Assembly (NCBI GenBank): GCA_025056305.1
Contig: JANWWJ010000025.1
Location: 1 to 57,475 of the forward strand
Length of the DNA: 57,475 nucleotides
Origin: Chitinophagales bacterium
Lineage (GTDB): Bacteria > Bacteroidota > Bacteroidia > Chitinophagales > UBA10324
Direction of reading: 5' to 3'
Position numbers and translations under genes: made by a program. Of this stretch, positions 4,344 to 39,322 are shown piece after piece (positions within the stretch are counted from its first letter, which is position 1; every line of letters starts with the position of its first letter). A model generated the notes under the pieces. The model saw only the letters and a program-made list of their open reading frames with translations. It did not search any database and had not been told where the DNA came from.

Positions 4344-6410
4344 TTATTCGGTAACCTTCCAGTGCCAGCGCTGCTGGCCCACTTGTAGCTCAACGACGTA
4401 CAACGAGGGTAAAGGAAATTCCAGCGCAATGTGTTGTGTGCCGGCATCTAAAAAAATCTCTTGGTGTTGCTGCAGGCGCCCCCACGGATCGGTAAACCGG
4501 ATCAATGCGTCCTGAGGTTGCGCTGTTGACACAACAAGCTGCCATCCACCGCCATAACGTCGCAACGTCGCCTCCAACCCTTCGGGCTCTGCTTCCCGAG
4601 AGAGGCATGTCCCGAATTTCAGCTCCAGCCGGTTGCCTGCTTTGGAAATCTGAACCCCCGGCACGGTATGCGGTACTCCCTGCTGTGAAGTGATGGTTCC
4701 GGATTGGACCAGATTTCCTGATGCATCATAATTATACCAATATATAGTGCGGCCGGGTTGCGCTTTGAAAGCCTGAAGCCGCCGTAAGGTGACATCGGCG
4801 CTGCAAGAGGTAGGTTGGTTTGCCTGCAGCTGTCCACCGACGACGTAGTCTTTTAGATAAAGCTTAACCGAAAAGCTGCATTTGGTTTCGCTCACCTCAC
4901 TCCAGGCCAGAAGACCATTGATGGTGCCGAAAGCATCCCCATCGTTTTTCTTTCCGTTACCTGGATTGCCGTTCACCGAACAGTTACTAAATGCCGGATA
5001 CGCTACATTGAGGGCCAGCTGCTGATAGGGAATTAAGGTCTCCGTATCTAACCATTTGGCTTCATCGCCATTGTGTTTGCGCCGATCCCAAAAAAAGACT
5101 GCCGGCATCTTGTAAAGCTGGGCCGTGTCGTAAAAAGAGGGCTTATCACTCCATCCCACTGTAGCATCTTGCTTACCATGAACGCACCATATGTGCGGAA
5201 GGCTGCGGTGATAGTTCTTCATAAAAAGCTTCTTTATATTCATTAAATCAAAAATGCGTAATGAGTCATTCAGATTGCTCATGTCAGGCACGTTGGTTTT
5301 GAGGTTAGTGCTTGCCGTACCCCATAGTTGTTGATGCCAGCCATCGCCACTTTTCAAGGCAGTGGGATGAGCAATGGCATACACGCCTGTAATTTTTTCG
5401 GGCACCAGGGCTGCAGTAATCAAGGCGCCCAAGCCACCGGTACTTACCCCGACGAGAAAAACTTTTGTCGTATCCACGGGCAAATAGTTACGTGCCCATT
5501 CAATGGTGTGAATGATCCGATGCTGGGTATAAGCCATCACTACTCCCGAAGTGGGAATGGGATTATCACTGACATATATGTCATAGCCTGTATGATATCC
5601 CACCCAACCGGTGGATTTGCCGGCTTCTTCGTGATAGCCATCGGGATAGGGAATCCAGTCATCCAAACTCAAGATGATACAGTTCGACAGCGTATCAAAA
5701 GGATCAAGGCCGTTTCCCTTAATGGCATTTTTTTGAAGACCCTCCAGAAAAACAAAGAGAGGATAGCGTTCAGCCTGCCCACGACGAATTTGGAAAAAAT
5801 TATATCCAAACGATCCTACATTGTTGAACGGCTTGCGATACACATTTTGCCGGTTGTCTCCAAACTGGGCATAGTAGTGGACCACATCACCATTGCTCCA
5901 TACCACTGAATCTTGCCACACAGGCAAAGGAAATGCCACCGTTTCCGAAACGGGATTAATTAAAGTATTCTTTCCCGAAAGCAAGGTCTTGTCCTCTACG
6001 CCGCTAGCAAGATCCATCACGGTCACCGCATAATAAAAAAGGCCCGTTTCTGTGCACGTGACCACATAAAGACCAATGTTGGAACCCAAAGGCTCTCCAT
6101 TGGGCTGCCAGCGAAAGTATATCGGCATTTGTTCCAGCCTGCTGCGTCTGAGGTTTTTGCTGGAGCTGTCCCTTACCTGACCTATGTAGGTGGTTGAATT
6201 GAGTTGATCAGCAGAGGTGAACGGCGTTGAACTTCGATAAACCTTATAGGCCTGGCCCGTAGCAGTCACGTTTTGCCACGCAAGAAAAACTTGTCCGTCG
6301 CGGTAGTGGGCCTGCAATTTGGTTACAGTAGCTGCATGTATCCCATGGCTACAAAAAGCAAAAACCAAGAACGCAGAAAGACGATTTAAGATCACATGAA
6401 CAGTTTGCAT
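4344..6410 (-). CDS. Secreted alpha/beta hydrolase with FnIII-like and T9SS sorting domains (paralog A)
   Basis: One of three paralogues in this window; I do not recognise a named family. The start at 6410 gives a clear signal peptide (cleavage near residue 26, after SHGIHA). Layout of 688 residues: FnIII-like domain (27-150, with QAYKVYRSSTPF), a beta-rich region, an alpha/beta-hydrolase core (about 215-470), a Cys-containing domain with CSADVTLRR, and a C-terminal domain of type IX sorting type (IRFTDPWGRLQQ ... LYVVELQVGQQRWHWKV). Likely triad: Ser323 in GVSTGGLG, Asp415 in HGKQDATVGW, His446 in WDRRKHNG. A conserved NCSVNGNPGNG motif follows the core. It is tandem with paralog B. Export through the T9SS and hydrolysis are inferences; substrate (ester or peptide) is unknown. 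An in-frame extension to 6530 would destroy the signal peptide. Confidence 0.82.
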   Translation of the reverse strand: MQTVHVILNRLSAFLVFAFCSHGIHAATVTKLQAHYRDGQVFLAWQNVTATGQAYKVYRSSTPFTSADQLNSTTYIGQVRDSSSKNLRRSRLEQMPIYFRWQPNGEPLGSNIGLYVVTCTETGLFYYAVTVMDLASGVEDKTLLSGKNTLINPVSETVAFPLPVWQDSVVWSNGDVVHYYAQFGDNRQNVYRKPFNNVGSFGYNFFQIRRGQAERYPLFVFLEGLQKNAIKGNGLDPFDTLSNCIILSLDDWIPYPDGYHEEAGKSTGWVGYHTGYDIYVSDNPIPTSGVVMAYTQHRIIHTIEWARNYLPVDTTKVFLVGVSTGGLGALITAALVPEKITGVYAIAHPTALKSGDGWHQQLWGTASTNLKTNVPDMSNLNDSLRIFDLMNIKKLFMKNYHRSLPHIWCVHGKQDATVGWSDKPSFYDTAQLYKMPAVFFWDRRKHNGDEAKWLDTETLIPYQQLALNVAYPAFSNCSVNGNPGNGKKNDGDAFGTINGLLAWSEVSETKCSFSVKLYLKDYVVGGQLQANQPTSCSADVTLRRLQAFKAQPGRTIYWYNYDASGNLVQSGTITSQQGVPHTVPGVQISKAGNRLELKFGTCLSREAEPEGLEATLRRYGGGWQLVVSTAQPQDALIRFTDPWGRLQQHQEIFLDAGTQHIALEFPLPSLYVVELQVGQQRWHWKVTE

Positions 6411-6563
6411 GGATGAAAAGTTTATGAAAGCAAGCCAGGCAGAGCCCCTGCTGCTCACCAGCATCCTCGAAGCCACAGCCGGATGTCTAACGCGGCTGCT
6501 GCAGGCCTGACTTCGCGTCAGCCACATCATGGCTGAAACGAAGAAACATGATGAACTAATTAT
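6411..6563. other. 153-bp spacer between the two tandem hydrolase genes
   Basis: No gene is visible. A small imperfect dyad (CTGAC / GTCAG around a TTCGC loop near 6509-6523) is present but lacks a T-run on either side, so I do not call a terminator. I see no TAnnTTTG box close to the start of paralog A, which may be expressed by read-through from paralog B. Confidence 0.4.
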
Positions 6564-8660
6564 TTAATAGATAAAACTCACAGACTTACTCACACGACCA
6601 GTGTTAGACGTATATAAAAGCACATAATTCCCCGGTGGCAACAGGGGCAAACGTATGCAATGTTGCTCCGAAGCCGACGAAACAACATATTGCCAACGGC
6701 GAACTCCCTTCATGTCAACTACTGTGAGTACCCCTGATTCGGCGGAAGGAGTGCTCAGACAAGCATATAATTCCCCCAGGTGATATCTTACCTCCAGGCG
6801 CAAACGCTGTGCTTCTTCCGATGCAGGATGCTGCTCCGCCTGGCGCAGACATCCATCAATACTGATGGTCAGCCGGCTTTTAGACTTATGGATCATTACG
6901 CCCGGGATGGTCAAAGGTCCTCCTAGGTACACAAAAGAACCCGACTGAATTTGAGTGTTGTTGGCATCAAAAGTCTTCCATTTGATAAGCTGACCGGGCT
7001 GCGGCTTGAAATTTTGTGCCCGTCGAACTGTAACGTCGGCTGTACAGGTGTGGTATTGATTGGGTGCCAAGACGCCGCCTACGTAAAAGTCGCGGATGAA
7101 AAGCTGGAATCTTAACTCACACAGTCCGTCGAACACACTGTCGCGCGTCCAATCTAAGTAACCATTAATGGCTCCGTAAGGATCACCATTGGCTGGGTTC
7201 CCATTGCCGGGATTTTGATTGATGCTACAGTTTGAAAAAGCAGGATGAGGTCTGTTGTTGACAAGGGAATACCACGGGGGCATCGTTTCGCTGTCCAAAA
7301 AATTTTTTCCGTTTCCATTATGTTTTCTCTGATCCCAAAAGGAGATGCCTCCCACAGCGTTTCGCTGCAAAGAGTCAAAAAAACTTGTGACGATTGGACT
7401 CCAAACAATAGTCTGATCTTGTTTGCCAAAAACACTGTACATGAGCGGCATCTTTTGATTCCGGTTAACCCTGACCATATGGCGTATATCAAACAAATCA
7501 AAGACCCGAATAGGCTGCCCGGTTTCAGGATGAAGAATATCGGTGTGAAGATTTGATGCAGTATCACCCCACATTTGTTCGGGTTGATCATCGCTGTTAT
7601 CAATGGTAACGAGCTTGAAAGCCGGAACCACGCAATAAGCTGCGGTGATCTTGTGCGGGATCAAGTTGGCAGTCAGATAAGCACCGATACCTCCATTGCT
7701 TACTCCTACCACATAGGTACGCTGGGTATCTAGCGGGAAAGTCCGTTGCGCCCATAAAATGGATTGAATGTATCGCCTCTGCGAGTACATCTTGACCGTG
7801 CCACTGGTCGGTATGGGATTGTTCTCCTCGTAGAAATTGTAATGCTCATGATAACCACTCCAAAACGTATTTTCCCCTGTATTGTTTCCGTTTGGTGTTG
7901 GCAGCCAATCGTCAAAACCCAAGATGTAACAATCGGTGATGTTTTTGAAGGAATCCAGGCCGTTTCCTTTCAGCGAGTTTTCACGCAAACCTTCATAAAA
8001 AGCAAACAACGGATATTGCGTCGCTTGGCCCCTACGAATCACATAAAAATTAAACCCATAAGATCCCACAGAACTTAATGCAGGAAAATGGGCTGTTTCC
8101 ATATTGTTGCCAAACCACGTATAATACTTCACCACATCCCCATGGCCCCATGTCACTGAGTCTTGAAAAACCGGTGCGGGCTGAGCTATTGCCTCCTGTA
8201 CGGGAGTACTTAATGTGTTCTTGCCTGAGCGAATCTTCTTGTTTTCTGTGTTGCTGGACAATTTCACCACCATCACGGCATAATAGTAGGCCTGATTGTC
8301 GGTACAGGTGGTAACAAACAAACCCTGATTCTTCTGCAAGGTCGTTCCATTGTCGTCGATCTTGTAATAGCGAGATCCCCCAAGAATTTCGCTCAGCCGT
8401 ATGTTTTTGCACGAAGAGTCCCGCACAAACCCAACAAATGTGCTGCTGTTTAACTGCGAGACATCGGTAAACTTGGTCGTGCTCCGATAGACGTTGTATT
8501 GGCGATTAGTCCCTTTTGGGCAGGTCCAGCGCAAAAACACCTGACCATTCCGATAGGTTGCCGTCAGGTTTGAAACCGTTTGACCGAGGGCAGGCATCCT
8601 CGACCCTATGAACAACGTCGCCAGATAAAAACACCAGGCGAGGGAATGCGATAACTTCAT
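6564..8660 (-). CDS. Secreted alpha/beta hydrolase with FnIII-like and T9SS sorting domains (paralog B)
   Basis: A 698-residue sister of paralog A, aligned along its whole length. Signal peptide about residues 1-26 (ending near RMPALGQ), FnIII-like domain with RQYNVYRSTTKF, hydrolase core with Ser321 in GVSNGGIG, Asp415 in FGKQDQTIVW and His447 in WDQRKHNG. The conserved NCSINQNPGNGNPANGDPYG block follows, then CTADVTVRR and a C-terminal type A sorting-like domain (LTVVDMKGVRRWQY ... PGNYVLLYTSNTGR). The residue before GKQD is Phe instead of the His seen in A and C. It lies 13 nt after the TPR gene, so it is probably co-transcribed with it. Hydrolase activity is inferred from fold and triad; substrate unknown. 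Confidence 0.82.
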   Translation of the reverse strand: MKLSHSLAWCFYLATLFIGSRMPALGQTVSNLTATYRNGQVFLRWTCPKGTNRQYNVYRSTTKFTDVSQLNSSTFVGFVRDSSCKNIRLSEILGGSRYYKIDDNGTTLQKNQGLFVTTCTDNQAYYYAVMVVKLSSNTENKKIRSGKNTLSTPVQEAIAQPAPVFQDSVTWGHGDVVKYYTWFGNNMETAHFPALSSVGSYGFNFYVIRRGQATQYPLFAFYEGLRENSLKGNGLDSFKNITDCYILGFDDWLPTPNGNNTGENTFWSGYHEHYNFYEENNPIPTSGTVKMYSQRRYIQSILWAQRTFPLDTQRTYVVGVSNGGIGAYLTANLIPHKITAAYCVVPAFKLVTIDNSDDQPEQMWGDTASNLHTDILHPETGQPIRVFDLFDIRHMVRVNRNQKMPLMYSVFGKQDQTIVWSPIVTSFFDSLQRNAVGGISFWDQRKHNGNGKNFLDSETMPPWYSLVNNRPHPAFSNCSINQNPGNGNPANGDPYGAINGYLDWTRDSVFDGLCELRFQLFIRDFYVGGVLAPNQYHTCTADVTVRRAQNFKPQPGQLIKWKTFDANNTQIQSGSFVYLGGPLTIPGVMIHKSKSRLTISIDGCLRQAEQHPASEEAQRLRLEVRYHLGELYACLSTPSAESGVLTVVDMKGVRRWQYVVSSASEQHCIRLPLLPPGNYVLLYTSNTGRVSKSVSFIY

Positions 8661-12040: not shown

Positions 12041-15000
12041 TTACTGGCCTAATGAAAACCGTAGGGTGACGCCCCCCGCCGTGTAGCGGATGGGATAAGA
12101 TGCAGAAATACGTGGATTGGTGATGCGTTTGTCAAAAAAGACGCGCACGTTGAGACGGTTGTTTACGGTGTAATCGGCAGAAGGAGATATGGTGATGGTC
12201 TGCACGCCTGCGGTAGGCTGTGAAGCCACGGGCTCATCAAGCCGCTGGCTATAGGTGACGTTGTCGGTTACCGATGTGTTGAACTGAAAATTCACATCGT
12301 TTTTCAGGAACTTACGCTTGCCGTCTACCTTCCAGGGTAACGGAACGTTGCGGAACTTATAACCCACACTCAGACTGATTTCTTCATTGCGGCTTTCGGC
12401 CAATTGAAAGTCGAGAAAGCTGAAAGTAAGATTGCGAGATTTTTTGTATTCAATTTTTGTGCTTAATGAATTTTTCCACGTCATGTCTATGCCGATAAGC
12501 GGGCTGAATTGTTCGGAGATGGTAACGGCAGGAATGTTGTAAAACGGAACGAAGTTCAACGAGTTGGGATCAATATAAGAAGGCAACATGAGGTCGGCGG
12601 CTGGATCTCCTTCAAACAACAACGACTGGGCAAAAGACGATATGGCCAGCGTACTGGTGTAGCCATGCGAGATGTTCACGTTATTCCAAATTTTCTTTGC
12701 CCATGGCAACTTGGTTAAGCCATTGTAAGTAATGCGCCAGTTGGGTCTGGGCAATTCATCAAACGGCAGGCCCAGCCCGATGCGTCGGGGATCTTTGCCC
12801 GAATAGGCTGCCAGAAATGCAGGCAACAATACATCCGGAGCATAGGGACCATAGCCTTTATAGTAGATTCCCTGCACGGTGTCCGTACCAAAAGGCTCAA
12901 AATTGGAATAGGGGTTGATGGCTGTAAGCCGCTCGGAGATGATTTGGCGATAATTCTGAAAATCTAAGAATGTTTGTGAAAACTTATTAGGCCTAACCCG
13001 AACAAAGGTGGTTTTTATCGGCAAATACGACATAGTAAAGGTGCCTGACTCCAAACGGCTGAGGTGAGCAAAACCTCCACCTGCATTGGGTACCTTGAAA
13101 TACTCCGACAGGTTGTTGCCGCGCGTCTTGTTGAAGTTGATATCAACCAGCACATCTTTGAACGGCTCTGCCGTCACTTTCATGGTCAGCTGGCGTTGAC
13201 GGGTTTGCAGAAATTGATAATTCAGGGCGGTATCGGTGGAAATCCATCCGCGTTGGGCTGCACGGTTCAACCAGTTGCTGTCGGGTTGATAGCCGAAAGC
13301 GAAGGGCCAGCCCGGGGCACTCAAAGTCAGATCTTGCCCCACAAACCGAGGTTGCGGCAAAAAGCCCGGCAACACCGTCGTTCGGTTATCGCTAAAGCTT
13401 ATATTAAATTTTTTCACCATCATGACCAGCCGAAACACCACTTTTTCATTTCCTACCGGTTTTTCGGACGGCTTTTTGGCCGAACCCGCCCCCTGACCTT
13501 TCTTCTCTTCCTGACCGGCGGCTTCCTTGCCTCGCTCGCCTTTACCGGTTTCGGCACGTGGTTTCTGCTGCGTTGCCTGTGTGTCGTATCGTTTTAGGAA
13601 CTTGGATTTGGCGTAAAGGTTCCGGAAGTTAAAATCACCGTTGACCGAAATGTTCTGACTGTTATTGATCGTATGGCCTAAGGTGGTAATCGTCATTTTT
13701 TGAGTAACCGGGTCAATGACCATAGGGCCGGTAAGCCAACCAAACGTACTGCCATAGCGCGCTGTAGTCTGAGTCCAATCCAACAAGGGGATTTTATTCA
13801 ACGGCAGCGTGTAGGCAGCATTGGCGGCATGCGTGTAGTTGGTCGTACGGCCGAAACGCCTGATGTTATGCCAGACGGAATCTTTTTTTTCCGGCGTATC
13901 CAATCGGCCCGGTGGCTCGTCGATGCGGGTGCGTGTGGTGGCATTGAAATCCAAATTCAGCCCCTTGCTGAATTCGTACTTAAAGCCCCCAAAACGATCC
14001 CAGGTCCAAAACTTATTGTAGGTGGGAATTATGGTTTCTGTTTCATCCAAGGGCCGCAGCTTCAATTCTCCGAACTGGCGGTCCATAGTGGTACGGAAAT
14101 TCAGATTGGTAGGAAGAAAGTTGATGTTAAAGTCGCGGATGATTTTAAGATATTTCGCTTTGGCCGGAATGGCCTTTTGCAATGGGGAAAGAAAACGGGC
14201 CTTACCCGGAAACTGATACCCCAGCTCGGCCCTGTGATTGCGCAATAAATTCGAAGCGATGATGGGTGTTCGGCTGAAGTTTCGCGTATAGGCATAAGTG
14301 AAATTCCAGTTTTGCGGTGAATAGACCTTTTGCTTAGCGCCCTTGGTCTGCGGCTGAAGCCGAACATTGGTAAAGTTGATGCTGCCGATGGAAGAGTATG
14401 TCTGTGCTGCCTTGCGGGCTTCACTGCGCTGCTGGCCATCACTGATGAGGCGCAGCTTATCTGCCAGTAAAATGTCTTGATCGTAGGGATCGTACTGAGG
14501 TGTGCTGATGGACTTAGAGATGCCCGCATAGAAGGGCAATTTCAGTCCTATTTTTTCAGGGGCAAGTTTGCCCAGCTCAATAGTTGTGCCCAAATCATAG
14601 GCCACGAAGTTGTCGCGGTATCGTTCGTTAAGTTTTTGCTGCAGTTGTCCAAAGCCGATGGAATGATAGGAAGTGGCCAAAGCGATGTTTCCGAGGTCGG
14701 CCAGTTGAATTTCAGCTCGGGCCAATGCAGCATTGCCACCTTGCTCGTTGAAGCCGGTAAGGCGAAATTCATCGAACCACACCTCAGCGCATTTGGGCTG
14801 CCCGTCATCGTCAACGGAACCTCCTTTGGGATTACGCACCCCCAGCATGGCTGTAACCACATTTCCCAGATCGGGATTGCCCATCACGGTAACGCGGCCC
14901 CCGTTGGCCAGATCCACAGTAAAAGGCTGATTGACCGGCCATGCCTGCTGATTGCGCGTGCTCTTGATGGCAACCAACTCGCGCAGAACGATGTGTATTT

Positions 15001-18000
15001 GGTTTTCGTCCGGCCAAACCTTGCGTTGTTCGGTCGGACTGTTGGGATTGTAATAGCCAGGCGGCGTGATCACCAGCGGAATGGCATATTCATAATAATT
15101 ATTTGTAAAGTCAGAACCCAGGCGTACAAAAGCCCAGATGTCGCCGTAATTGAGCGTGCCCTGCCCTTCCACCGCTTCGGCATGCACAAAAACCTTTGCG
15201 TTGTGATATTGCCTAAGGTCCAAATTGATGTTCTTGTACACGGCTCGGGCATCCCCATCGCGAAGGTTACAGACCTGCAGAGCCAGCGATTGCTCGTTTT
15301 GAAACTGTGTGCCCAGCTGGCCGACAATCTGCTCGCGCAATATGCCAGGCGGCATGACGTAGTTGATGGGTTCGCGCGTCGAATTTTCTTCCAAGCTTAC
15401 GCTGGTAACGTTAAAGGTGGTTACATTGCTGTTATCGGTAGGCAGGTACTCACCTGGCGATTCCAATGAATACAAATATTTACGCCATTGATTGCGCACC
15501 AGCTCCATTCGGGCAAAACGCAGAATGACTGTCGTATCAAAATCCGTTAGATACATGCGCACAAACCGGATGGACTTGAAGTCCTGAATACTGCCCACCT
15601 TGGTGGAAAATTCGCTGACAGGAATTTTGAGCTGTATCCATCGGGCGATGCCTGGGCTGAAGCCATTGCGGTCGGGGGGCACTTGATATTCCCGCACATC
15701 GGTTACAAAACGGTCACCAACCACCATGTTGGGACGCAAGCGCACGTGATATTGGAAAAACTCTTCATTCTCGGTAATGGTGTTGTCGCGGTTTAAATCT
15801 TCGGATTCCGGAGCATTAGTAGCTGCCTGCGAGATGACAGCCGTAGCCGCTGAAATCGGCGAATTGCCTTCGGGATTGTTGTAGCGGCTGTAACGGTCCA
15901 GAATGCCTACGTTAGGTCCAAAGCTGCCGTCGTCGTAATAACGGTAATCGTCAGCAGCAGGGTCGGCGAATGCAGCTTGATAGACCGGAGAGTTGACCCC
16001 ATAGATTTTAGCCAAGGCGTTGAGATAGGAGCCGTAAACGACTTGTTCACTGGAGGTACCGGGTGCAGCCGTCTGGCTGCGCACACCATCATAACCCACA
16101 TCTTGCCACTGACGGGCATTGGGATCTGTATCGAAAGCATTGGTGACGGGGGGAATTTTAGGAGAAAAGCCCCATGCTGTACGATTCAAAATCGTCGTAT
16201 CGCCACTGGGCGAAAGTCCGTTTTCATAGAAAAATTTTGAATCTTTCAAAACATCCTCCGAAACATTTCCGAGGTCTATGTATAAGCTTCCCCCGCTGCT
16301 GTTTTGATCGTACAGGAAGGGATCTAACAACCACAGTTGAATGTATTCGATGTTGGCTTGTTCGAAATCCGTCTGGTCAAGGCTGCGCTGAATACCGGCC
16401 CACCGCTTGCGCAAGTTGGCTGACGCGCTGGTATCGAAACCGATGGATCCGTCGGCTAACACAATCAGGCCCGCGGTGTCGAAATTGTAGGGGCCGCGCT
16501 TACGGGGTTCATAACGCAGATCAAAAGTGTTTTCGCGCTGATCAAAGGGGGTATTTGTAAGGTCTTTTTCAGGGAAAATCTCCGTCTGCAGCACTTCACG
16601 CGAGTAAAAGTTGCTTTGCTGTGCCGAATTGTTGCGAATGCCATCAGGGGCCTGGTTGCTCCAAAAGAAGGGATCAATCTGGTACCAGCTGAGTTTAGCA
16701 CGGTTGAACCCGTACGACCAATCGTTGACACGTGAGGCCTCGGGAAATCGGGATACCTGTGGTGTACTGGCCAGCTTCCAACTGATAAATGGAAAACGCA
16801 GGTCGTAGGAGGTCTGTGTGCCTTCAAAATCATCGATGTAAATCGTACCTTCCTCTCCGATCACCCGTGAATGGCCGGGATCCAATCGCGCCGTTTCAGC
16901 CGTGATATTTATGGATGAACTGCCAGTGGTTTCGATTAACGGCAAGGCATTGATCCAGCGTGTGAGAATAGGAAGTTCGCGCTGATACGTCCCGTCCAAT
17001 CCATAGATCGCATTGCTGATAGGATCGTAACCGGCATTGAGCTTGTTGGTATAAGGGCGCTCCCATAATTTCAAGAAGGTACCTCCCAACATGAGGTTGC
17101 GATTGATGTAATAATCCAGGCGCGTGCCAAACAGGGTTTGTGTTTGGAAGCTGAACAAGTCGGTATTTTCAAAAGAAACATTGATGGGGATGCCTGAATT
17201 CAACAAACTCTGATTGAGGATGCGTACGCGACCCAAGTTGTAGTCAACGGTATAGTCCACATTTTCGGTCAGCTTTTGCCCGCCGGCAGTCACCACTACC
17301 GAGCCTTGAGGCACATTGAAGGCGCCCAAAAAAATCTCATTGCTGCTGCGCGACTTATAGGTGCCTTTGAGCACATAGCGGTTATACTGCGGAAACTGTT
17401 CTGCCACGGTCTTTGTGGAATCGTACAATTGCTGATATACATAAGGATCTGCTTCCAGAGGGTTGGAAAATTTGTTGCGCAGGTCTTTACCGAAAGGTTG
17501 AACTACTGGGAAAATGACTTTGCCGTTGGCAGGGATGATGGTCAGGTTCGGAACAAAGTCAAACACGCCATCGGGCTGTGGATCCTGATTGTTGTTGAGG
17601 CGATCCAAGCCCAACACACTGATGAGTGGCGTACCGCTCAGCTCCGCAGCAGGCAGATATCTTTTTTCTCCACCGCCCGGATCTAAATAGTAGATGTCCA
17701 GATAAAAATCTTCTTGATTAATTTGAAAAGCCCCAAGCGAGTACACATTTTTCATCATCAAATTCCAGATCGGCAGCTTGGGCCGCGTGCTGGTGCCCTT
17801 AAGCATTTTCACGAACAACACCTTGGCGGAGTCAGGGTCAGGCGTGATGTCGGTGCTGAACTCACCTACCTGATATACTTTTCCGTTCACCGTGTATTGA
17901 TAGGCCACCGCCAAAACCTCATCAGGCTGCAGTTGCTGATTGAGCAAGATGTAGCCGAGGCGCGGTTCCAGTGTGTACTCATTGGGTGCTAATTTTCTTG

Positions 18001-19330
18001 CATATGTTTTTTCAAAATCCTGAAAAGGCACAAACTGATTTTCAGTCAGGGTTTGCAGGGCAAAATCCAATCGGCGCGCCTGGCTTAAGGCAGGGTCTTG
18101 GGTAAGGCGCAGGTATAAGTTGTTGGAGTTTAAATCAGGACCATCGGTAGGCGGATGATATCCGTAAGGCAAGGGATTGGCGGGGTTTCCGGTAGTCACC
18201 AATTGATTATAGGGTCGATATTCGCCCAAATCAGCAAAGGCAACAATATTGCGCACATCGGTGGTTACTCCTGTTTTGTTGGTGACCCAAACTTCGATAC
18301 GCGTGATGTTTACCTGCGAGTTGATTAACGGAAGTTGGGCCATGGCCTCGTTGAAGGTCTCGTAGAAATACTGGCCGAGAAAGAAGTTGCGGTTTTCGTC
18401 GTAGCGGTCGCAGCTGATGCGAAACGTCTGCATTTGGGCGCCGCCTTCCAGAGTGATGCTTTGCGACTTGGATTGTTGCTGAGAAATGACCGAGGTAATG
18501 GTTAACCGCCCGAACTGCAGTTGGGTTTTTAATCCGAACAAATTCTGGCTGCCGGTGATCAACGATCCCTTTAACGGCAAAGCCACATTACCGGCCTCAA
18601 TCTTTCGGATGATTTCATCTTGATAGCCGGTATATTCCAGCTTGACCTGATTTTCAAAACTGAAGTTGGCTCCCGTGTTGTAGTTGACGTTCATGCGCAG
18701 CTTATCGCCGATTTTGGCCAGCACGTTCATCTGAATCTGCATGTCGAAATCAAATCCCCCCTGCCGCCGCTGGCGCTTGGTGAGTGTCGGATTTAAAATA
18801 TTCTGATAATTACCTCCAAACGTAAGGTCAATATTTCCCTGCGGACGTATATCAACCCGCGTTCCTCCAAAAATTCGGTCGACAAGCCGGTTGTTTACGT
18901 TTACCTCAGGCAGTATGCCTTGTTCACTGAGCAAGGCGCTGGCATTGCTGCGCTTGCGCCAATACTCAGCTTCCTGCTTTTTGAATTCCAGCTCTAAGAA
19001 TTCCTCGAAAGTGAGGTAGGTGGGGTTACGAAAAAAATCTCGGCCTATGGTTTCGGTAAGCAGATAGTTGCCCGATTCAGGATCATATTCAATTTTCTGT
19101 TCGATAGCGGAAGGATCATCCAAATCAAAACCATTGTAGGAATTAGTGGTGTAGTAGTCGGTGTATCGGTCGTGAATGGGGTAACGAAGCTGAGTGCCGG
19201 GTGGCGAGTCTGACGGAAAGGGGGGCCGCACGTCGGCATCGGTGCGGTTTCCGGCTACAGACAAGACTGTCAAGCCGACGAGGGCTGTCAGCAGGCCCGC
19301 TATAACTCCATGGTTGCTTTGGCTCACCAC
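12041..19330 (-). CDS. sprA: SprA, outer-membrane translocon of the type IX secretion system
   Basis: A giant (2429-residue) outer-membrane beta-barrel. In Flavobacterium johnsoniae SprA forms the 36-strand T9SS export channel and is needed for gliding. The N-terminus has a hydrophobic export signal (VIAGLLTALVGLTVLSVAG), then the SprA-type start (RYPIHDRYTDYYTTNSYNGF) and repeated aromatic/charged beta-strand patterns to the end (GGVTLRFSLGQ). Length matches the family. The start must be GTG: an in-frame TAG lies immediately upstream (19333-19331), and GTG occurs at 19330 and 19327. Residues about 1923-1957 form a Lys/Glu/Gly-rich low-complexity insert. It is the last gene of maeB-ruvA-sprA, a gene order I recall from other Bacteroidota, and probably exports the sorting-domain proteins encoded nearby. 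Confidence 0.96.
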   Translation of the reverse strand: MVSQSNHGVIAGLLTALVGLTVLSVAGNRTDADVRPPFPSDSPPGTQLRYPIHDRYTDYYTTNSYNGFDLDDPSAIEQKIEYDPESGNYLLTETIGRDFFRNPTYLTFEEFLELEFKKQEAEYWRKRSNASALLSEQGILPEVNVNNRLVDRIFGGTRVDIRPQGNIDLTFGGNYQNILNPTLTKRQRRQGGFDFDMQIQMNVLAKIGDKLRMNVNYNTGANFSFENQVKLEYTGYQDEIIRKIEAGNVALPLKGSLITGSQNLFGLKTQLQFGRLTITSVISQQQSKSQSITLEGGAQMQTFRISCDRYDENRNFFLGQYFYETFNEAMAQLPLINSQVNITRIEVWVTNKTGVTTDVRNIVAFADLGEYRPYNQLVTTGNPANPLPYGYHPPTDGPDLNSNNLYLRLTQDPALSQARRLDFALQTLTENQFVPFQDFEKTYARKLAPNEYTLEPRLGYILLNQQLQPDEVLAVAYQYTVNGKVYQVGEFSTDITPDPDSAKVLFVKMLKGTSTRPKLPIWNLMMKNVYSLGAFQINQEDFYLDIYYLDPGGGEKRYLPAAELSGTPLISVLGLDRLNNNQDPQPDGVFDFVPNLTIIPANGKVIFPVVQPFGKDLRNKFSNPLEADPYVYQQLYDSTKTVAEQFPQYNRYVLKGTYKSRSSNEIFLGAFNVPQGSVVVTAGGQKLTENVDYTVDYNLGRVRILNQSLLNSGIPINVSFENTDLFSFQTQTLFGTRLDYYINRNLMLGGTFLKLWERPYTNKLNAGYDPISNAIYGLDGTYQRELPILTRWINALPLIETTGSSSINITAETARLDPGHSRVIGEEGTIYIDDFEGTQTSYDLRFPFISWKLASTPQVSRFPEASRVNDWSYGFNRAKLSWYQIDPFFWSNQAPDGIRNNSAQQSNFYSREVLQTEIFPEKDLTNTPFDQRENTFDLRYEPRKRGPYNFDTAGLIVLADGSIGFDTSASANLRKRWAGIQRSLDQTDFEQANIEYIQLWLLDPFLYDQNSSGGSLYIDLGNVSEDVLKDSKFFYENGLSPSGDTTILNRTAWGFSPKIPPVTNAFDTDPNARQWQDVGYDGVRSQTAAPGTSSEQVVYGSYLNALAKIYGVNSPVYQAAFADPAADDYRYYDDGSFGPNVGILDRYSRYNNPEGNSPISAATAVISQAATNAPESEDLNRDNTITENEEFFQYHVRLRPNMVVGDRFVTDVREYQVPPDRNGFSPGIARWIQLKIPVSEFSTKVGSIQDFKSIRFVRMYLTDFDTTVILRFARMELVRNQWRKYLYSLESPGEYLPTDNSNVTTFNVTSVSLEENSTREPINYVMPPGILREQIVGQLGTQFQNEQSLALQVCNLRDGDARAVYKNINLDLRQYHNAKVFVHAEAVEGQGTLNYGDIWAFVRLGSDFTNNYYEYAIPLVITPPGYYNPNSPTEQRKVWPDENQIHIVLRELVAIKSTRNQQAWPVNQPFTVDLANGGRVTVMGNPDLGNVVTAMLGVRNPKGGSVDDDGQPKCAEVWFDEFRLTGFNEQGGNAALARAEIQLADLGNIALATSYHSIGFGQLQQKLNERYRDNFVAYDLGTTIELGKLAPEKIGLKLPFYAGISKSISTPQYDPYDQDILLADKLRLISDGQQRSEARKAAQTYSSIGSINFTNVRLQPQTKGAKQKVYSPQNWNFTYAYTRNFSRTPIIASNLLRNHRAELGYQFPGKARFLSPLQKAIPAKAKYLKIIRDFNINFLPTNLNFRTTMDRQFGELKLRPLDETETIIPTYNKFWTWDRFGGFKYEFSKGLNLDFNATTRTRIDEPPGRLDTPEKKDSVWHNIRRFGRTTNYTHAANAAYTLPLNKIPLLDWTQTTARYGSTFGWLTGPMVIDPVTQKMTITTLGHTINNSQNISVNGDFNFRNLYAKSKFLKRYDTQATQQKPRAETGKGERGKEAAGQEEKKGQGAGSAKKPSEKPVGNEKVVFRLVMMVKKFNISFSDNRTTVLPGFLPQPRFVGQDLTLSAPGWPFAFGYQPDSNWLNRAAQRGWISTDTALNYQFLQTRQRQLTMKVTAEPFKDVLVDINFNKTRGNNLSEYFKVPNAGGGFAHLSRLESGTFTMSYLPIKTTFVRVRPNKFSQTFLDFQNYRQIISERLTAINPYSNFEPFGTDTVQGIYYKGYGPYAPDVLLPAFLAAYSGKDPRRIGLGLPFDELPRPNWRITYNGLTKLPWAKKIWNNVNISHGYTSTLAISSFAQSLLFEGDPAADLMLPSYIDPNSLNFVPFYNIPAVTISEQFSPLIGIDMTWKNSLSTKIEYKKSRNLTFSFLDFQLAESRNEEISLSVGYKFRNVPLPWKVDGKRKFLKNDVNFQFNTSVTDNVTYSQRLDEPVASQPTAGVQTITISPSADYTVNNRLNVRVFFDKRITNPRISASYPIRYTAGGVTLRFSLGQ

Positions 19331-25719: not shown

Positions 25720-27834
25720 ATGAAAACTAAACGACTCACACGAAAGCCGTTCATTCTTCGCATGATCGGTATTTGCGCATTTTTCGGTTTGCCAGCATTC
25801 TTGGCTCGAGGGCAGGCGGTGTATGTTTCCAATCTAAAAGCCACCTACCGGCACGGCCAAGTTTTTTTGACATGGACCTGCCCTGCCGGTACAGGATATA
25901 AGTACAAGATTTACCGCAGCACTTCCCCTCTGGATAAAAAAAGCAAGATCAATTCCTCAACGTACTTAGGCGGCTATGTACTTGATTCCTCATCCCTAAA
26001 CGTACGGCTCACCCGAAAGCTGGGCGTTAAAACTTTTTACACAATCGAAGACGGTGGCCAGCCGCTGAGTGCCAACACAGGTCTTTATGTGGTTACTTGC
26101 GATGCACCTGGGGCTTACTATTATGCGGTAACCGTAACTCGTCTGTCTAATGGAAAAGAATATTCCAAGATGACAGTAGGCTCTAACACACTGGCCACGC
26201 CGGTTCAGGAATATGTTGCCGATCCGCAACCGGTGTTGCAGGGATCTTTCGTAACCGGCTCTACAGGAGAAACCTGCTATCGCTATGTCCAATTCGGTGA
26301 CCACCGAAATCTGCCACATTATCCCTACATGTTCAATCAGGGATCTTATGGTTTCAATTTTATCATGATTTACCGGGGCAACTATGTGGGAGGCCCATTA
26401 TATGTTTTTTATGAAGGTATTGAAGGCAGTGCTTTCATCGGATCAGGTTTGGAACAGTTTTCCTCGTTTGCTATCAATAATTGCATTATGATCAGTATGG
26501 ATGATTGGATTCCATTGCCCAACGGTTATGGCAGCACAGCTGGAAGTAACACCTTTTGGACAGGGTATCATGAAAATTTTAATCCATACATTCTGACCAA
26601 TCCGATCCCCACCACCGGTACAATTCGCATGTACCACCAGCACCGCTATATTCATACCATTCGCTGGGCATGTAAATACCTGCCTATTGACTCCCATCAG
26701 GTCAATCTAGTCGGAAAATCAGCCGGTGGTTTTGGCGCGTTGGTAACGGCCATGATCATTCCGAAAAAAATCAATACCGTCTATTCCATTGTGGCCCCTA
26801 TCAAGATCAAAAGCTACAACTTTGATTCGGACACCAGCGATGAGCAATTATGGGGCAAGAGCAATTCACGCCTGCCGTGCGACATTCTTGATCAAATCAC
26901 CGGAACTGCCTTAGTTGCTTTTGATTTGATGGACATCAAAACCATGATGCAGAAATACACTTCTCTAGGCCTGCCGGTCATTTACACGATCCATGGCAAA
27001 AACGACGCAACGGTCGGATGGAGCGATAAGCCCGATTACCTCAACCAAAACGAACAGTACTGGCATGGCGGCGTTCATTTTTGGGATCAGCGCAAACACG
27101 ATGGCTCTCAAGCCAACTTTTTCGATAGCGAAATCACGCCGCCCTTCAGTAAGTTTCGCGCCAATATTTCCTATCCGGCTGTCAGCAACTGCGATATCAA
27201 TCAAAACCCCGGCGATGGCAATCCAGCCAATGGCGACCCCTACGGTGCTTTCAGCGCGTACGTCACCTTCGATTCCGTTACCGACAATCCCTGCAAGTGG
27301 ACATGTAAATTTAATTTGGTGAACTACACGGTTGGTGGTGTTGCTCAGGGCAACTACACCGCTTGTTATGCGGACATTACCCTGAGGAGAACCCAACATT
27401 TCAAACCTACGGGAGGTGCCACCATTAAATGGGCTAATTACGATAAGGATAATGTGAAAATTCAAAGTGGTTCGTTCACTTATTCAGCCGGAGCCAACAT
27501 CACAATCGGAGGGGTAAAAATCAAAAAAAGCGGCAACCGCCTTGAGGTAGAAATAAAAAACTGCTTGACTCGCGAAGAAACTGATGAAGCCCTACCCCAG
27601 GCCAACCCCTTCCACGTCACCTACACCCACGATGGTTGGCAATTGACCTTTTCCACAGCAGAGGAAGGAGAAGCCCACCTGCAACTGGTGGACATGCTCG
27701 GTCGTGTTTTGGAAGAACGCTCAATTTGGATAGCTCGAGGCATGCTGCATCATCTCCCTGCCCCGGGACGCGGCACCTACATCTTGCGCATTCGGTTGCC
27801 GCAAGGTGATTTCGAGCAAACCCTCGTTTTCTAA
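25720..27834 (+). CDS. Secreted alpha/beta hydrolase with FnIII-like and T9SS sorting domains (paralog C)
   Basis: A 704-residue third member of the family seen at 4344-8660, with the same domain order throughout. Signal peptide about residues 1-32 (ILRMIGICAFFGLPAFLARG), FnIII-like domain with YKYKIYRSTSPL, hydrolase core with Ser334 in VGKSAGGFG, Asp429 in HGKNDATVGW and His460 in WDQRKHDG. Then come the NCDINQNPGDGNPANGDPYG block, CYADITLRR, and a C-terminal type A sorting-like domain (LQLVDMLGRVLEER ... GTYILRIRLPQGDFEQTLVF). It lies alone between gldH and icmF, about 17 kb from the tandem pair and on the opposite strand. T9SS export is inferred from the C-terminal domain and the presence of sprA and gldH; substrate unknown. 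Confidence 0.82.
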   Translation: MKTKRLTRKPFILRMIGICAFFGLPAFLARGQAVYVSNLKATYRHGQVFLTWTCPAGTGYKYKIYRSTSPLDKKSKINSSTYLGGYVLDSSSLNVRLTRKLGVKTFYTIEDGGQPLSANTGLYVVTCDAPGAYYYAVTVTRLSNGKEYSKMTVGSNTLATPVQEYVADPQPVLQGSFVTGSTGETCYRYVQFGDHRNLPHYPYMFNQGSYGFNFIMIYRGNYVGGPLYVFYEGIEGSAFIGSGLEQFSSFAINNCIMISMDDWIPLPNGYGSTAGSNTFWTGYHENFNPYILTNPIPTTGTIRMYHQHRYIHTIRWACKYLPIDSHQVNLVGKSAGGFGALVTAMIIPKKINTVYSIVAPIKIKSYNFDSDTSDEQLWGKSNSRLPCDILDQITGTALVAFDLMDIKTMMQKYTSLGLPVIYTIHGKNDATVGWSDKPDYLNQNEQYWHGGVHFWDQRKHDGSQANFFDSEITPPFSKFRANISYPAVSNCDINQNPGDGNPANGDPYGAFSAYVTFDSVTDNPCKWTCKFNLVNYTVGGVAQGNYTACYADITLRRTQHFKPTGGATIKWANYDKDNVKIQSGSFTYSAGANITIGGVKIKKSGNRLEVEIKNCLTREETDEALPQANPFHVTYTHDGWQLTFSTAEEGEAHLQLVDMLGRVLEERSIWIARGMLHHLPAPGRGTYILRIRLPQGDFEQTLVF

Positions 27835-27912: not shown

Positions 27913-30900
27913 ATGACGCCAGCAGAGGTTTATACACCTGTTAACAAAATCCGTATAGTTACCGCCGCCGCACTGTTCGACGGCCACGATGCTGCCATCA
28001 ACATCATGAGGCGCATCATGCAATCCAGCGGGGCTGAGGTCATTCATCTGGGCCACGACCGTAGCGTCGATGAGGTGGTCCGTTGCGCCATTCAGGAAGA
28101 CGTACAGGCCGTAGCTCTTACGTCTTATCAAGGCGGTCATATCGAATATTTCAAATACACATACGACTTGCTGCGCGAAAAAGGGTGCGGACACATTAAA
28201 ATTTTTGGCGGAGGGGGTGGGGTGATCCTACCGCACGAAATAGAAGAGCTGCATAACTACGGCATCACACGCATCTATTCGCCCGACGACGGGCGTGCCA
28301 TGGGATTGCAGGGTATGATCAATGATGTGTTACGCCGATGCGATTTTCCGTTGGGCAACAACCTTAATGGGGAATGGAATTTGATTCGCCAACGCAACCA
28401 CCTGGCTATTGCCCGAACCATCTCAGCTATAGAAAATTTCCCCAACGTAGCCGAAGGCGCTTTGCAAATCCTGCGCAGCGAAGCAAGCCGATCAAAAACC
28501 CCCGTGTTAGGCATTACAGGCACAGGAGGAGCCGGTAAATCTTCCTTAGTGGACGAGCTGGTACGCAGATTTCTGCTGGATCACCCCCACATCAACCTGG
28601 CTATTTTGTCTATTGATCCTACTAAGCGTAAAACCGGAGGCGCCTTACTGGGCGATCGTATCCGGATGAATGCCATCAATGACGACCGGGTGTACATGCG
28701 CTCCATGGCCACGCGCCAGGCACACATGGCTTTATCGCGTTCAGTGCAAGATGTTCTCGTTGTCCTTAAAGCTGCTGCTTTCGACTTGATTATTCTGGAA
28801 ACAGCAGGCATTGGTCAAAGCGACACGGAAGTACATGACTTTGCTGACCTTTCTCTTTATGTGATGACTCCAGAGTATGGAGCACCCAGTCAGTTGGAAA
28901 AAATCGATATGCTTGATTTTGCTGACGTGGTGGCCATCAACAAATTCGACAAACGAGGTGCTGCTGATGCGCTGCGCGATGTACGAAAACAATACCAGCG
29001 CAACCGTATGCTGTTCGACCGTAAGCCGGAAGAATTACCGGTGTTTGGTACCATTGCCTCTCAATTCAATGACCCGGGCGTCAATCAGTTGTATGCGGCA
29101 TTGGTAGAACTGTTGCGTACCCGTACCTCCGCTCCCATTTTTCAGACCCAATTGAAAATAACGCTACAAGGAACCGAAAAACAATACATCATTCCTCCGG
29201 CACGCACCCGCTATCTGGGTGAAATTGTCGATACAATACGCTCGTACAACAGCTGGGTCGAACAGCAAGCCAAAATGGCAGCTGATTTGCAAGCTATTCA
29301 CCGCAGCATCTTACTGCTGGGCGGCCCTGATGTCCTAATTACCGGGGTACAAGACGTTCCGCAAGAGCAGAAGGCCCTTGCTGAACTCATGCAACGATGG
29401 CAGGAACTTTCGACTCAGCTAGACTCAAGATTGCTATCGGCCATCAGGAACTGGGATGAAATGCGTCAACAATACCGCAAGGAAGTTTATACATATCGAG
29501 TCAGAAATAAAGAAATCCGGGTAACAACGCACCGTGAGTCATTAGCGCATCTTTCAATCCCGCGTGTCGCCACGCCCCGTTTCACAGCATGGGATCAGAT
29601 CGTTGCCTGGTATTGTCAGGAAAATTTTCCCGGCTCTTTCCCCTACACCGCCGGCATCTATCCCTTCAAGCGGGAAGAAGAAGATCCCACCCGTATGTTT
29701 GCCGGTGAAGGTGGACCTGAACGTACCAACCGCCGATTCCATTATTTGTCATTGCATATGCCGGCCAAACGGCTGAGCACGGCCTTCGATTCGGTTACGC
29801 TCTATGGCCGTGACCCTGACCGTCGCCCTGACATTTATGGCAAAATCGGTAATTCGGGTGTCAGCATCTGCTGCCTCGACGATGCCAAAAAATTGTACAG
29901 CGGCTTCAACTTATGCGACCCGAAAACATCGGTCAGCATGACCATCAACGGGCCGGCATCCATCATTACGGGATTTTTCTTCAACACAGCCATCGACCAG
30001 CAATGTGAACTATACATAAAGCAGCATTGTCCTGACCTGCACATTCCGCCCCCACCCCCTGAAGTCTGTTACCACGGCCCTATTCCGGAAGGCAACGACC
30101 GGCTAGGCCTGCTGCTGCTGGGCACCACCGGCGATCAGGTTTTGCCCCGAGAGGTATATGAAAAAATCAAGGCCGATACCCTTCGCCAAGTGCGGGGGAC
30201 CGTGCAGGCCGACATCCTCAAAGAAGATCAGGCACAGAACACCTGCATTTTCTCCACAGAATTTTCATTGCGCCTGATGGGCGATATGCAACAATATTTT
30301 ATTGATAATAAAATTCGTAATTTTTATAGCGTCTCTATCTCGGGCTATCACATTGCCGAAGCCGGCGCCAATCCCATCACGCAGCTGGCCTTTACGCTGG
30401 CCAACGGGTTTACATATGTGGAATACTACTTAAGCCGGGGCATGCACATCGATGACTTTGCCCCCAATTTCTCATTTTTCTTTTCTAACGGCCTGGACCC
30501 AGAATATGCCGTTATCGGTCGAGTGGCCCGTCGGATCTGGGCTAAAGCGATGAAATTCAAATATGGCGCCAACGAACGCAGCCAAATGTTGAAATACCAC
30601 ATTCAAACTTCGGGGCGCAGCCTCCATGCCCAGGAAATAGACTTTAACGACATCCGCACCACTTTACAGGCTTTATACGCCATTTACGATAACTGCAACA
30701 GCCTTCATACCAATGCTTATGATGAAGCGATCACCACTCCTACGGAAGAAAGTGTGCGGCGGGCTATGGCCATTCAGTTGATCATCAACAAAGAGCTTGG
30801 CCTGGCAAAGAATGAAAACCCACTGCAAGGCAGTTTCATCATCGAAGAATTAACCGATTTGGTGGAAGAAGCGGTGATGGCTGAATTCGAGCGGTTGAAC

Positions 30901-31293
30901 GACCGAGGGGGTGTGTTGGGCGCTATGGAATCGATGTACCAGCGCAGCAAGATCCAAGAAGAAAGTTTGTATTACGAAACGTTAAAGCATTCGGGAGCAT
31001 ATCCGATCATCGGGGTCAACACCTTTCTGTCTTCAAAGGGGTCACCTACCGTCATTCCTGCAGAAGTAATTCGCAGCACCCCCGAAGAAAAAGAATTACA
31101 GATAGCTCGGGTAAATGAGCTGCATCGCCGCTATGCCGATAAAGCACCCAAGCTGCTGGCTGAATTACAAAAAACCGCAACGACCAATCAGAATTTGTTT
31201 GCCGCCTTGATGGAAGTAACCAAATACTGTTCTTTAGGTCAGATTACCAAAGCTTTGTTTGAAGTCGGTGGCCAATACCGACGCAACATGTAA
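27913..31293 (+). CDS. icmF: Fused isobutyryl-CoA mutase IcmF (B12 mutase with built-in G-protein chaperone)
   Basis: Adenosylcobalamin-dependent carbon-skeleton mutase interconverting isobutyryl-CoA and n-butyryl-CoA (some members use other acyl-CoAs). 1126 residues in the IcmF order: N-terminal B12-binding domain with the cobalt-ligating His25 in DGHDAAIN and [12 protein letters not shown]; MeaB/MeaI-like GTPase (Walker [10 protein letters not shown] about 202-210, DxxG-type [17 protein letters not shown]); then the mutase TIM barrel (about 540-1126) with [32 protein letters not shown] and [14 protein letters not shown]. The [10 protein letters not shown] form resembles IcmF more than methylmalonyl-CoA mutase. 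A 7/8 promoter box (TATCTTTA, 27886-27893) lies 19 nt before the ATG. No other acyl-CoA genes are adjacent. Activity was not tested; specificity is by resemblance. Confidence 0.93.
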
Positions 31294-38996: not shown

Positions 38997-39290
38997 ATGA
39001 AGGAAGCAGTTGTGCACTATCGGATTCGCATACGCGGGCGAGTGCAAGGGGTCTTTTTCAGGGCTACTGCCCGAAATCAAGCCCTGAATCTTGGGCTGAA
39101 AGGCATAGTGCGCAACGAAGCCGATGGCTCCGTCTATGCAGAAGTAGAGGGACCAGAGGACAAGGTTCAGCAATTCATCGCCTGGTGCCACCGAGGTCCC
39201 AAACAGGCTATCGTAACCGAGGTGATTGCCGAACAAAGCACTCCAAAAGGCTATAATTCATTTGAGGTGGAAAGAGGTTTGTATCATTGA
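38997..39290 (+). CDS. acyP: Acylphosphatase
   Basis: Small (97-residue) enzyme that hydrolyses carboxyl-phosphate bonds. The signature GRVQGVFFRATARNQALNLGL carries the phosphate-binding loop and catalytic Arg22; GIVRNEADGSVYAEVEG carries Asn40. Length is normal. It is divergent from the hydrolase operon and followed on the same strand, 32 nt later, by a secreted protease gene. Physiological substrate in bacteria is not established. Confidence 0.95.
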   Translation: MKEAVVHYRIRIRGRVQGVFFRATARNQALNLGLKGIVRNEADGSVYAEVEGPEDKVQQFIAWCHRGPKQAIVTEVIAEQSTPKGYNSFEVERGLYH

Positions 39291-39322
39291 AGTGCAGTAA
39301 CTTCAAATCAAGAACGCCTGGG

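Follow-up and report, generated by a model that had tools for sequence, protein, structure and literature searches.

Contig JANWWJ010000025.1 of a Chitinophagales bacterium (assembly GCA_025056305.1), a 57,475-nucleotide stretch analysed at its full length and referred to here as the window, carries on its minus strand a tandem pair of genes, A and B, encoding putative exported serine hydrolases. Gene B lies at 6564..8660 and encodes 698 aa, and gene A lies at 4344..6410 and encodes 688 aa. The longest mechanical open-reading frame of A is 4344-6530, but the ATG at 6410 was chosen over the start at 6530 because it fits a signal peptide better, and with this start A is 688 aa long and the gap to B is 153 bp. 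The two proteins are 43% identical across 662 columns (BLASTP, E 0.0). Gene C, on the plus strand at 25720..27834, encodes 704 aa and is 42-45% identical to A and B. A preliminary description of the window had reported two proteins of about 690 residues from genes 153 bp apart, a third paralogue and an architecture belonging to no named family, and these observations were confirmed; neither Pfam nor NCBIfam has a model for the whole architecture of A or B.

The alignment shows a five-part order of signal peptide, FnIII-like domain, GxSxG hydrolase, Cys/TLRR domain and C-terminal domain. In gene B these correspond, all on the minus strand, to a signal-peptide-like N-terminus (residues 1-26, 8583..8660; signal peptides were assigned by eye), an FnIII-like domain (residues ~27-152, 8205..8582), an alpha/beta-hydrolase core (residues 160-466, 7263..8183), a TLRR-type domain (residues 472-600, 6861..7247) and a sorting-like tail. 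The predicted nucleophile of B is Ser321 in GVSNG (7698..7700), the acid is Asp415 in FGKQD (7416..7418) and the histidine is His447 in WDQRKH (7320..7322). The equivalents in A, likewise on the minus strand, are Ser323 in GVSTG (5442..5444), Asp415 in HGKQD (5166..5168) and His446 in WDRRKH (5073..5075), followed by a TLRR-type domain at 4617..5000, and in C the triad of Ser334, Asp429 and His460 spans 26719..27099 on the plus strand. The identical domain order proposed earlier thus stands for the five parts, but the cysteines of the TLRR domain are not universal (Cys539 in 12 of 16 members, Cys514 in 7 of 16) and A and B have weak sorting tails.

Triad conservation, copy number and taxonomic spread

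From 79 family open-reading frames in the fetched loci, six partial ones were set aside and the remaining 73 full-length members, from eight genomes, were aligned. All 73 share Ser321, Asp415 and His447 (B numbering), at a mean pairwise identity of 36%, and the three residues stand in the order of an alpha/beta-hydrolase, with the serine at the nucleophile elbow, then the acid, then the histidine, as expected for the triad hydrolase first proposed. Across the 580 positions only 14 do not vary, the 11 besides the triad including Asp443 and Trp420. Across 14 orthologue pairs between the host genome and genome G008, the proportion of nonsynonymous differences in the core (pN) was 0.07-0.17 compared to 0.72-0.81 for synonymous differences (pS), with synonymous sites saturated in most pairs; the core of the family is under purifying selection. 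Beyond the core, conservation drops to 29-73% identity, versus 75-88% for the core, in the 13 host-G008 pairs with a tail. One very long-branched member (L128:451-2820 in G004, branch 1.57) also keeps the triad.

The pair represents two of 14 family copies in the host genome (2,409,590 bases, 99.46% complete), which could not be seen from the window, and the finding is larger than the preliminary description noted. Three copies lie in the window; contig C41 carries four in a row plus a pair, C15 carries two, and C9, C4 and C38 carry one each. Together their reading frames amount to 34,194 bp, or 1.4% of the genome, and their cores are 25 to 62% identical to one another. Fourteen divergent, triad-intact copies in a 2.4-Mb genome would be a heavy investment in one, presumably extracellular, chemistry that annotation leaves unnamed.

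Within the taxonomic family of the host, matches occur in 8 of 16 genomes, which represent 5 of 8 genera, and number 6-14 per genome when fragments are counted; the other eight genomes have zero matches at E 1e-20. A search of the order with the full alignment was swamped by sorting tails (99/99 genomes at E 1e-5) and was rerun with a tail-less profile. This found full-length members in 4 of the 99 genomes, all four among the 10 of the host family, and no full-length relative in the 89 order genomes outside it; the other order genomes gave short matches only, at 31 bits or less and mostly around the nucleophile. With the same profile and up to six candidates scored per genome, 198 genomes of the phylum gave full-length members in the host genome only, the best non-host match among the candidates scored being a 263-aa frame at 39.9 bits, and the full profile, with two candidates scored per genome, gave the same outcome for 395 phylum genomes. 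A peptide-pattern scan of contigs returned a single locus (L015), part of the metagenome-assembled genome Chitinophagales bacterium SKYG5. There was no match to the single pattern searched in viral contigs, nor to B in plasmids. Within the genomes searched, the enzyme family is restricted to one bacterial family. A literature search of open-licence papers found none on this enzyme family, which is real, under-described and more extensive than first seen.

Relationships of the hydrolase core, flanking domains and putative export signal

The core was placed among esterase-type alpha/beta-hydrolases, outside the named families, because of its Pfam, NCBIfam, solved-structure and profile-profile matches, an assignment by sequence comparison. 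The Pfam Esterase model (PF00756, gathering score 22 bits) scores A at 23.5 bits, 1.5 bits above the cut-off along 127 residues, and B (12.8) and C (15.5) below it; B and C pass no Pfam cut-off. At E up to 0.1, Esterase matches 9 of 16 members, Abhydrolase_1 8 of 16 and Peptidase_S9 4 of 16. Peptidase S9 (PF00326) scores B at 13.6 bits, under its gathering score of 22.6, with A and C unlisted. The preliminary description had proposed a profile search against esterase and prolyl-oligopeptidase families; the esterase group was the stronger of the two, though only A exceeded the Esterase cut-off and the S9 cut-off was reached by none of the window genes. The NCBIfam model for extracellular short-chain polyhydroxyalkanoate (PHA) depolymerase type 1 (NF050058, cut-off 150) matches 16/16 members at E up to 0.1 and scores A, B and C at 25.4, 21.3 and 15.3 bits, and the model for S-formylglutathione hydrolase (TIGR02821, cut-off 281.7) scores them at 23, 17.8 and 20.5 bits.

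The top solved-structure matches of the family profile are esterases, namely esterase D (1.6e-6), acetylxylan esterase (5.5e-6) and LC-Est1C (6.5e-5), followed by feruloyl esterases and the esterase 3doh (E 0.0011). S-formylglutathione hydrolase/esterase D (3fcx, 3e4d) is thus the best match by profile, and in a low-confidence model also shares the fold (Z 9.3-9.4 over ~220 residues, root-mean-square deviation (rmsd) 4.2-4.5), but it is a one-domain protein of ~280 aa. The match to 3doh, which we take to be EstA of Thermotoga maritima, covers only ~45 residues around the nucleophile. EstA presumably resembles the family in having a beta-sandwich, Ig-like domain before an esterase-type alpha/beta-hydrolase, and presumably differs in having neither a TLRR domain nor a type IX tail. 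For profile-profile comparison, sets were limited to proteins of 220-420 aa, which kept 11 of 14 proteins drawn by the NF050058 model and 13 of 13 small Bacteroidota esterases. The core profile aligned with the small esterases at an hhalign E of 3.2e-17 and with the PHA-type set at 1.6e-11, the latter placing Ser321 and Asp415 on the GxSNG serine and GxxD aspartate. No alignment could be built for S-formylglutathione hydrolase because its model had 0 matches at E 1e-60 in 61 phylum genomes.

Structure prediction drew on five sequences, the three window genes and two from L015. In the low-confidence model of the full mature protein, the N-terminus folds as FnIII, the middle as esterase D/S-formylglutathione hydrolase and the tail as an Ig-like domain, and the triad residues follow strands 289-294, 380-386 and 413-417 (mature numbering). 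The FnIII-like block of B has a predicted local distance difference test (pLDDT) score mostly of 70-91, with a dip to 36, and matches the fold of 2gee (Z 9.7, rmsd 2.5, 85 aligned). PHA depolymerases and EstA were not among the fold matches listed, which carries no weight against either. Glycoside hydrolases heading a Foldseek list (template-modelling score <0.2) were taken as single beta-sandwich matches and were not used.

A profile of the TLRR domain (residues 472-600) found matches in 4 of the 99 order genomes, all in the host family, at 14, 14, 11 and 11 per genome, and the matches in the host are exactly its 14 family members. In the genomes searched, the domain is a fixed partner of the hydrolase and not a mobile module, and it has no named Pfam relative except for weak Ig_7 matches. 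In one run of four consecutive family genes (L142:4481-15979, 904-981 aa), MopE-type metal-binding motifs and Ig/PKD domains precede the tail.

The type IX export proposed earlier for A and B is probable, because PorU and SprA are present and the tails are homologous to better sorting tails. PorU is above cut-off in 8/8 genomes searched, the host included, and SprA is encoded in the window at 12041-19330. The host genome has 128 matches to the sorting-domain model TIGR04183 at E 0.001, not all established above the cut-off of 23, and the model matches 12 of 16 members at E up to 0.1, while PF18962 matches 7 of 16 at E up to 0.01. TIGR04183 gives 14.9 bits for B and 16.2 bits for C and does not match A, so this part of the proposal fell short of the curated cut-off. 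A profile was also built from the tails of 65 other members, leaving out four members (tails <55 aa, two of them contig-end cuts) and the four A/B tails from the window and its sister genome. This profile scores the degenerate sorting-like domain of A (4347..4601, minus strand) at 32.1 bits and that of B (6567..6845, minus strand) at 25.8 bits, and also finds the other tail-bearing proteins of the window (60.1 and 32.2 bits). At E 1e-5 it is passed by 28 of 310 neighbour proteins, of which only those two window proteins were checked against Pfam. One paralogue (L144:4359-6383 and L099:5432-7366, in the host and G008) lacks a sorting tail, stopping ~5 aa beyond the TLRR domain, and its relative in G006 (L122:4432-6681) keeps ~90 residues after the core.

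Proposed activity and alternatives

Given this architecture, A and B appear to be exported alpha/beta-hydrolase-fold serine hydrolases, most likely carboxylic-ester hydrolases, a reading to which we give a probability of roughly two in three. Several observations weigh against it. The window genes score far under the NCBIfam cut-offs for every matching esterase family. The nucleophile elbow is looser than GxSxG, with Gly in 69/73 members at position 319 and, at position 323, Gly in 51/73 and Asn in 16/73. His447 aligns solely in forced alignments, where it meets the GHxxW histidine of the small esterases at a confidence near zero, and not in the PHA-type one. Confidence in the structure models is low (mean pLDDT 55.7 and predicted template-modelling score 0.43 for the full mature protein; pLDDT 37.2 for the core alone), and the A and B tails are weak against the curated sorting model. 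The earlier interpretation is, as a whole, partly supported.

In the mechanism that we propose, the signal peptide would carry the protein across the inner membrane and the C-terminal domain would route it via type IX secretion onto the cell surface or into the medium. There Ser321, activated by His447 and Asp415, would attack an ester in a substrate that lies outside the cell and is probably a polymer, and the FnIII-like and TLRR domains on either side of the core would serve for structure or for positioning the substrate. After repeated duplication inside one bacterial family, the copies would have preserved the triad as their other parts drifted apart, a pattern that fits differing substrates for different copies. 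Only tentatively do we extend this to a new hydrolase family, limited to one bacterial family, in which an esterase-type core is joined to a beta-rich TLRR domain absent from other proteins of the genomes searched, and which has been amplified to about a dozen surface-displayed copies per genome acting on differing extracellular substrates. If active, the copies would be a ready panel for learning how one exported scaffold spreads across substrates, and they could be thermostable if the relative SKYG5 is from a hot spring, a guess from its sample name.

Two narrower forms of the ester-hydrolase reading name a substrate. Polysaccharide from plants or microbes, cleaved at its acetyl or feruloyl esters, is suggested as the substrate by the acetylxylan and feruloyl esterases among the best solved-structure matches, and the name of the sister genome, SKYG5, may point to a SKY hot-spring green mat on plant litter, though the name is absent from the main text of PMC11071339. 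This specificity is nevertheless rather doubtful, as GH10 xylanase was found in 0/8 genomes searched, the host included, which is mild evidence against a role on xylan, and no neighbour family recurs beside different copies by sequence clustering.

In the other narrower reading, the proteins would depolymerize polyesters (polyhydroxyalkanoate or cutin-like) and use the TLRR domain to bind the polymer, which would be consistent with the NF050058 matches in all 16 members (best E 1.1e-8). Bacteroidota are also known to have esterases with type IX secretion system tails that act on polyester: PET27 and PET30, the closest literature parallel found, are exported alpha/beta-hydrolase esterases of ~330 aa with a C-terminal Por-type domain that are active on poly(ethylene terephthalate) (PMC8767016). 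They differ in size and in their PETase-like core, and FnIII or TLRR domains are not mentioned in the portion of that report available. Polyester depolymerization is an unlikely specialization of the window genes, since these remain far from the NF050058 cut-off, other esterase models match as well, and the TLRR domain has no named Pfam relative beyond the weak Ig_7 matches.

Exported serine peptidases of the prolyl-oligopeptidase kind would use the same triad on a peptide bond, with FnIII replacing the propeller. The Peptidase_S9 matches (best E 0.0028) and the presence of prolyl oligopeptidases among the fold matches (6jci, Z 9.4, rmsd 4.2, 215 aligned) are in line with this, but the structural Z ties with that of esterase D, the esterase profiles give stronger matches and in more of the members, and Pfam lists no propeller or N-terminal S9 domain for the window genes, making a peptidase activity distinctly improbable. 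That the family consists of non-catalytic surface proteins, such as adhesins or matrix proteins built on the scaffold of a hydrolase, as its many copies, fast-changing tails and, in some paralogues, extra Ig, PKD and MopE-type domains might suggest, is very hard to reconcile with a triad invariant in 73/73 members and needless in a structural protein.

Genomic context and history of the pair

Gene B is preceded by a gene for a TPR protein, with 13 bp between them, and downstream of A, after 47 bp, lies a pssA-like gene for a CDP-alcohol phosphatidyltransferase. A tree of the 73 members joins every one of the 14 host copies to a single G008 copy, and several of these pairs have nearer relatives in other genera than within their own genome. 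The pssA-side locus is conserved and holds family members in the host genome, G008, G004, G005, G007 and G009. In G007, the pssA-adjacent copy groups with A (Shimodaira-Hasegawa-like approximate likelihood ratio test 99) and its partial neighbour is nearest B (62-65% identity), so the B-A pair probably diverged before these genera split, bearing out the divergence that had been suggested for the pair. Copies at this locus also turn over, since both copies there in G004 belong to another branch. By sequence clustering of neighbours, no partner is common to different loci, and synteny is locus-specific only. One member in G009 (L119:4773-6613) is split across two overlapping frames, reflecting either a frameshift or an assembly error. 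Elsewhere in the window, a fused B12-binding / MeaB / methylmalonyl-CoA-mutase-type protein is encoded directly downstream of C (27913-31293), and 39287-41602 encodes a matrixin-like metallopeptidase that carries PKD and ends in a weak sorting tail.

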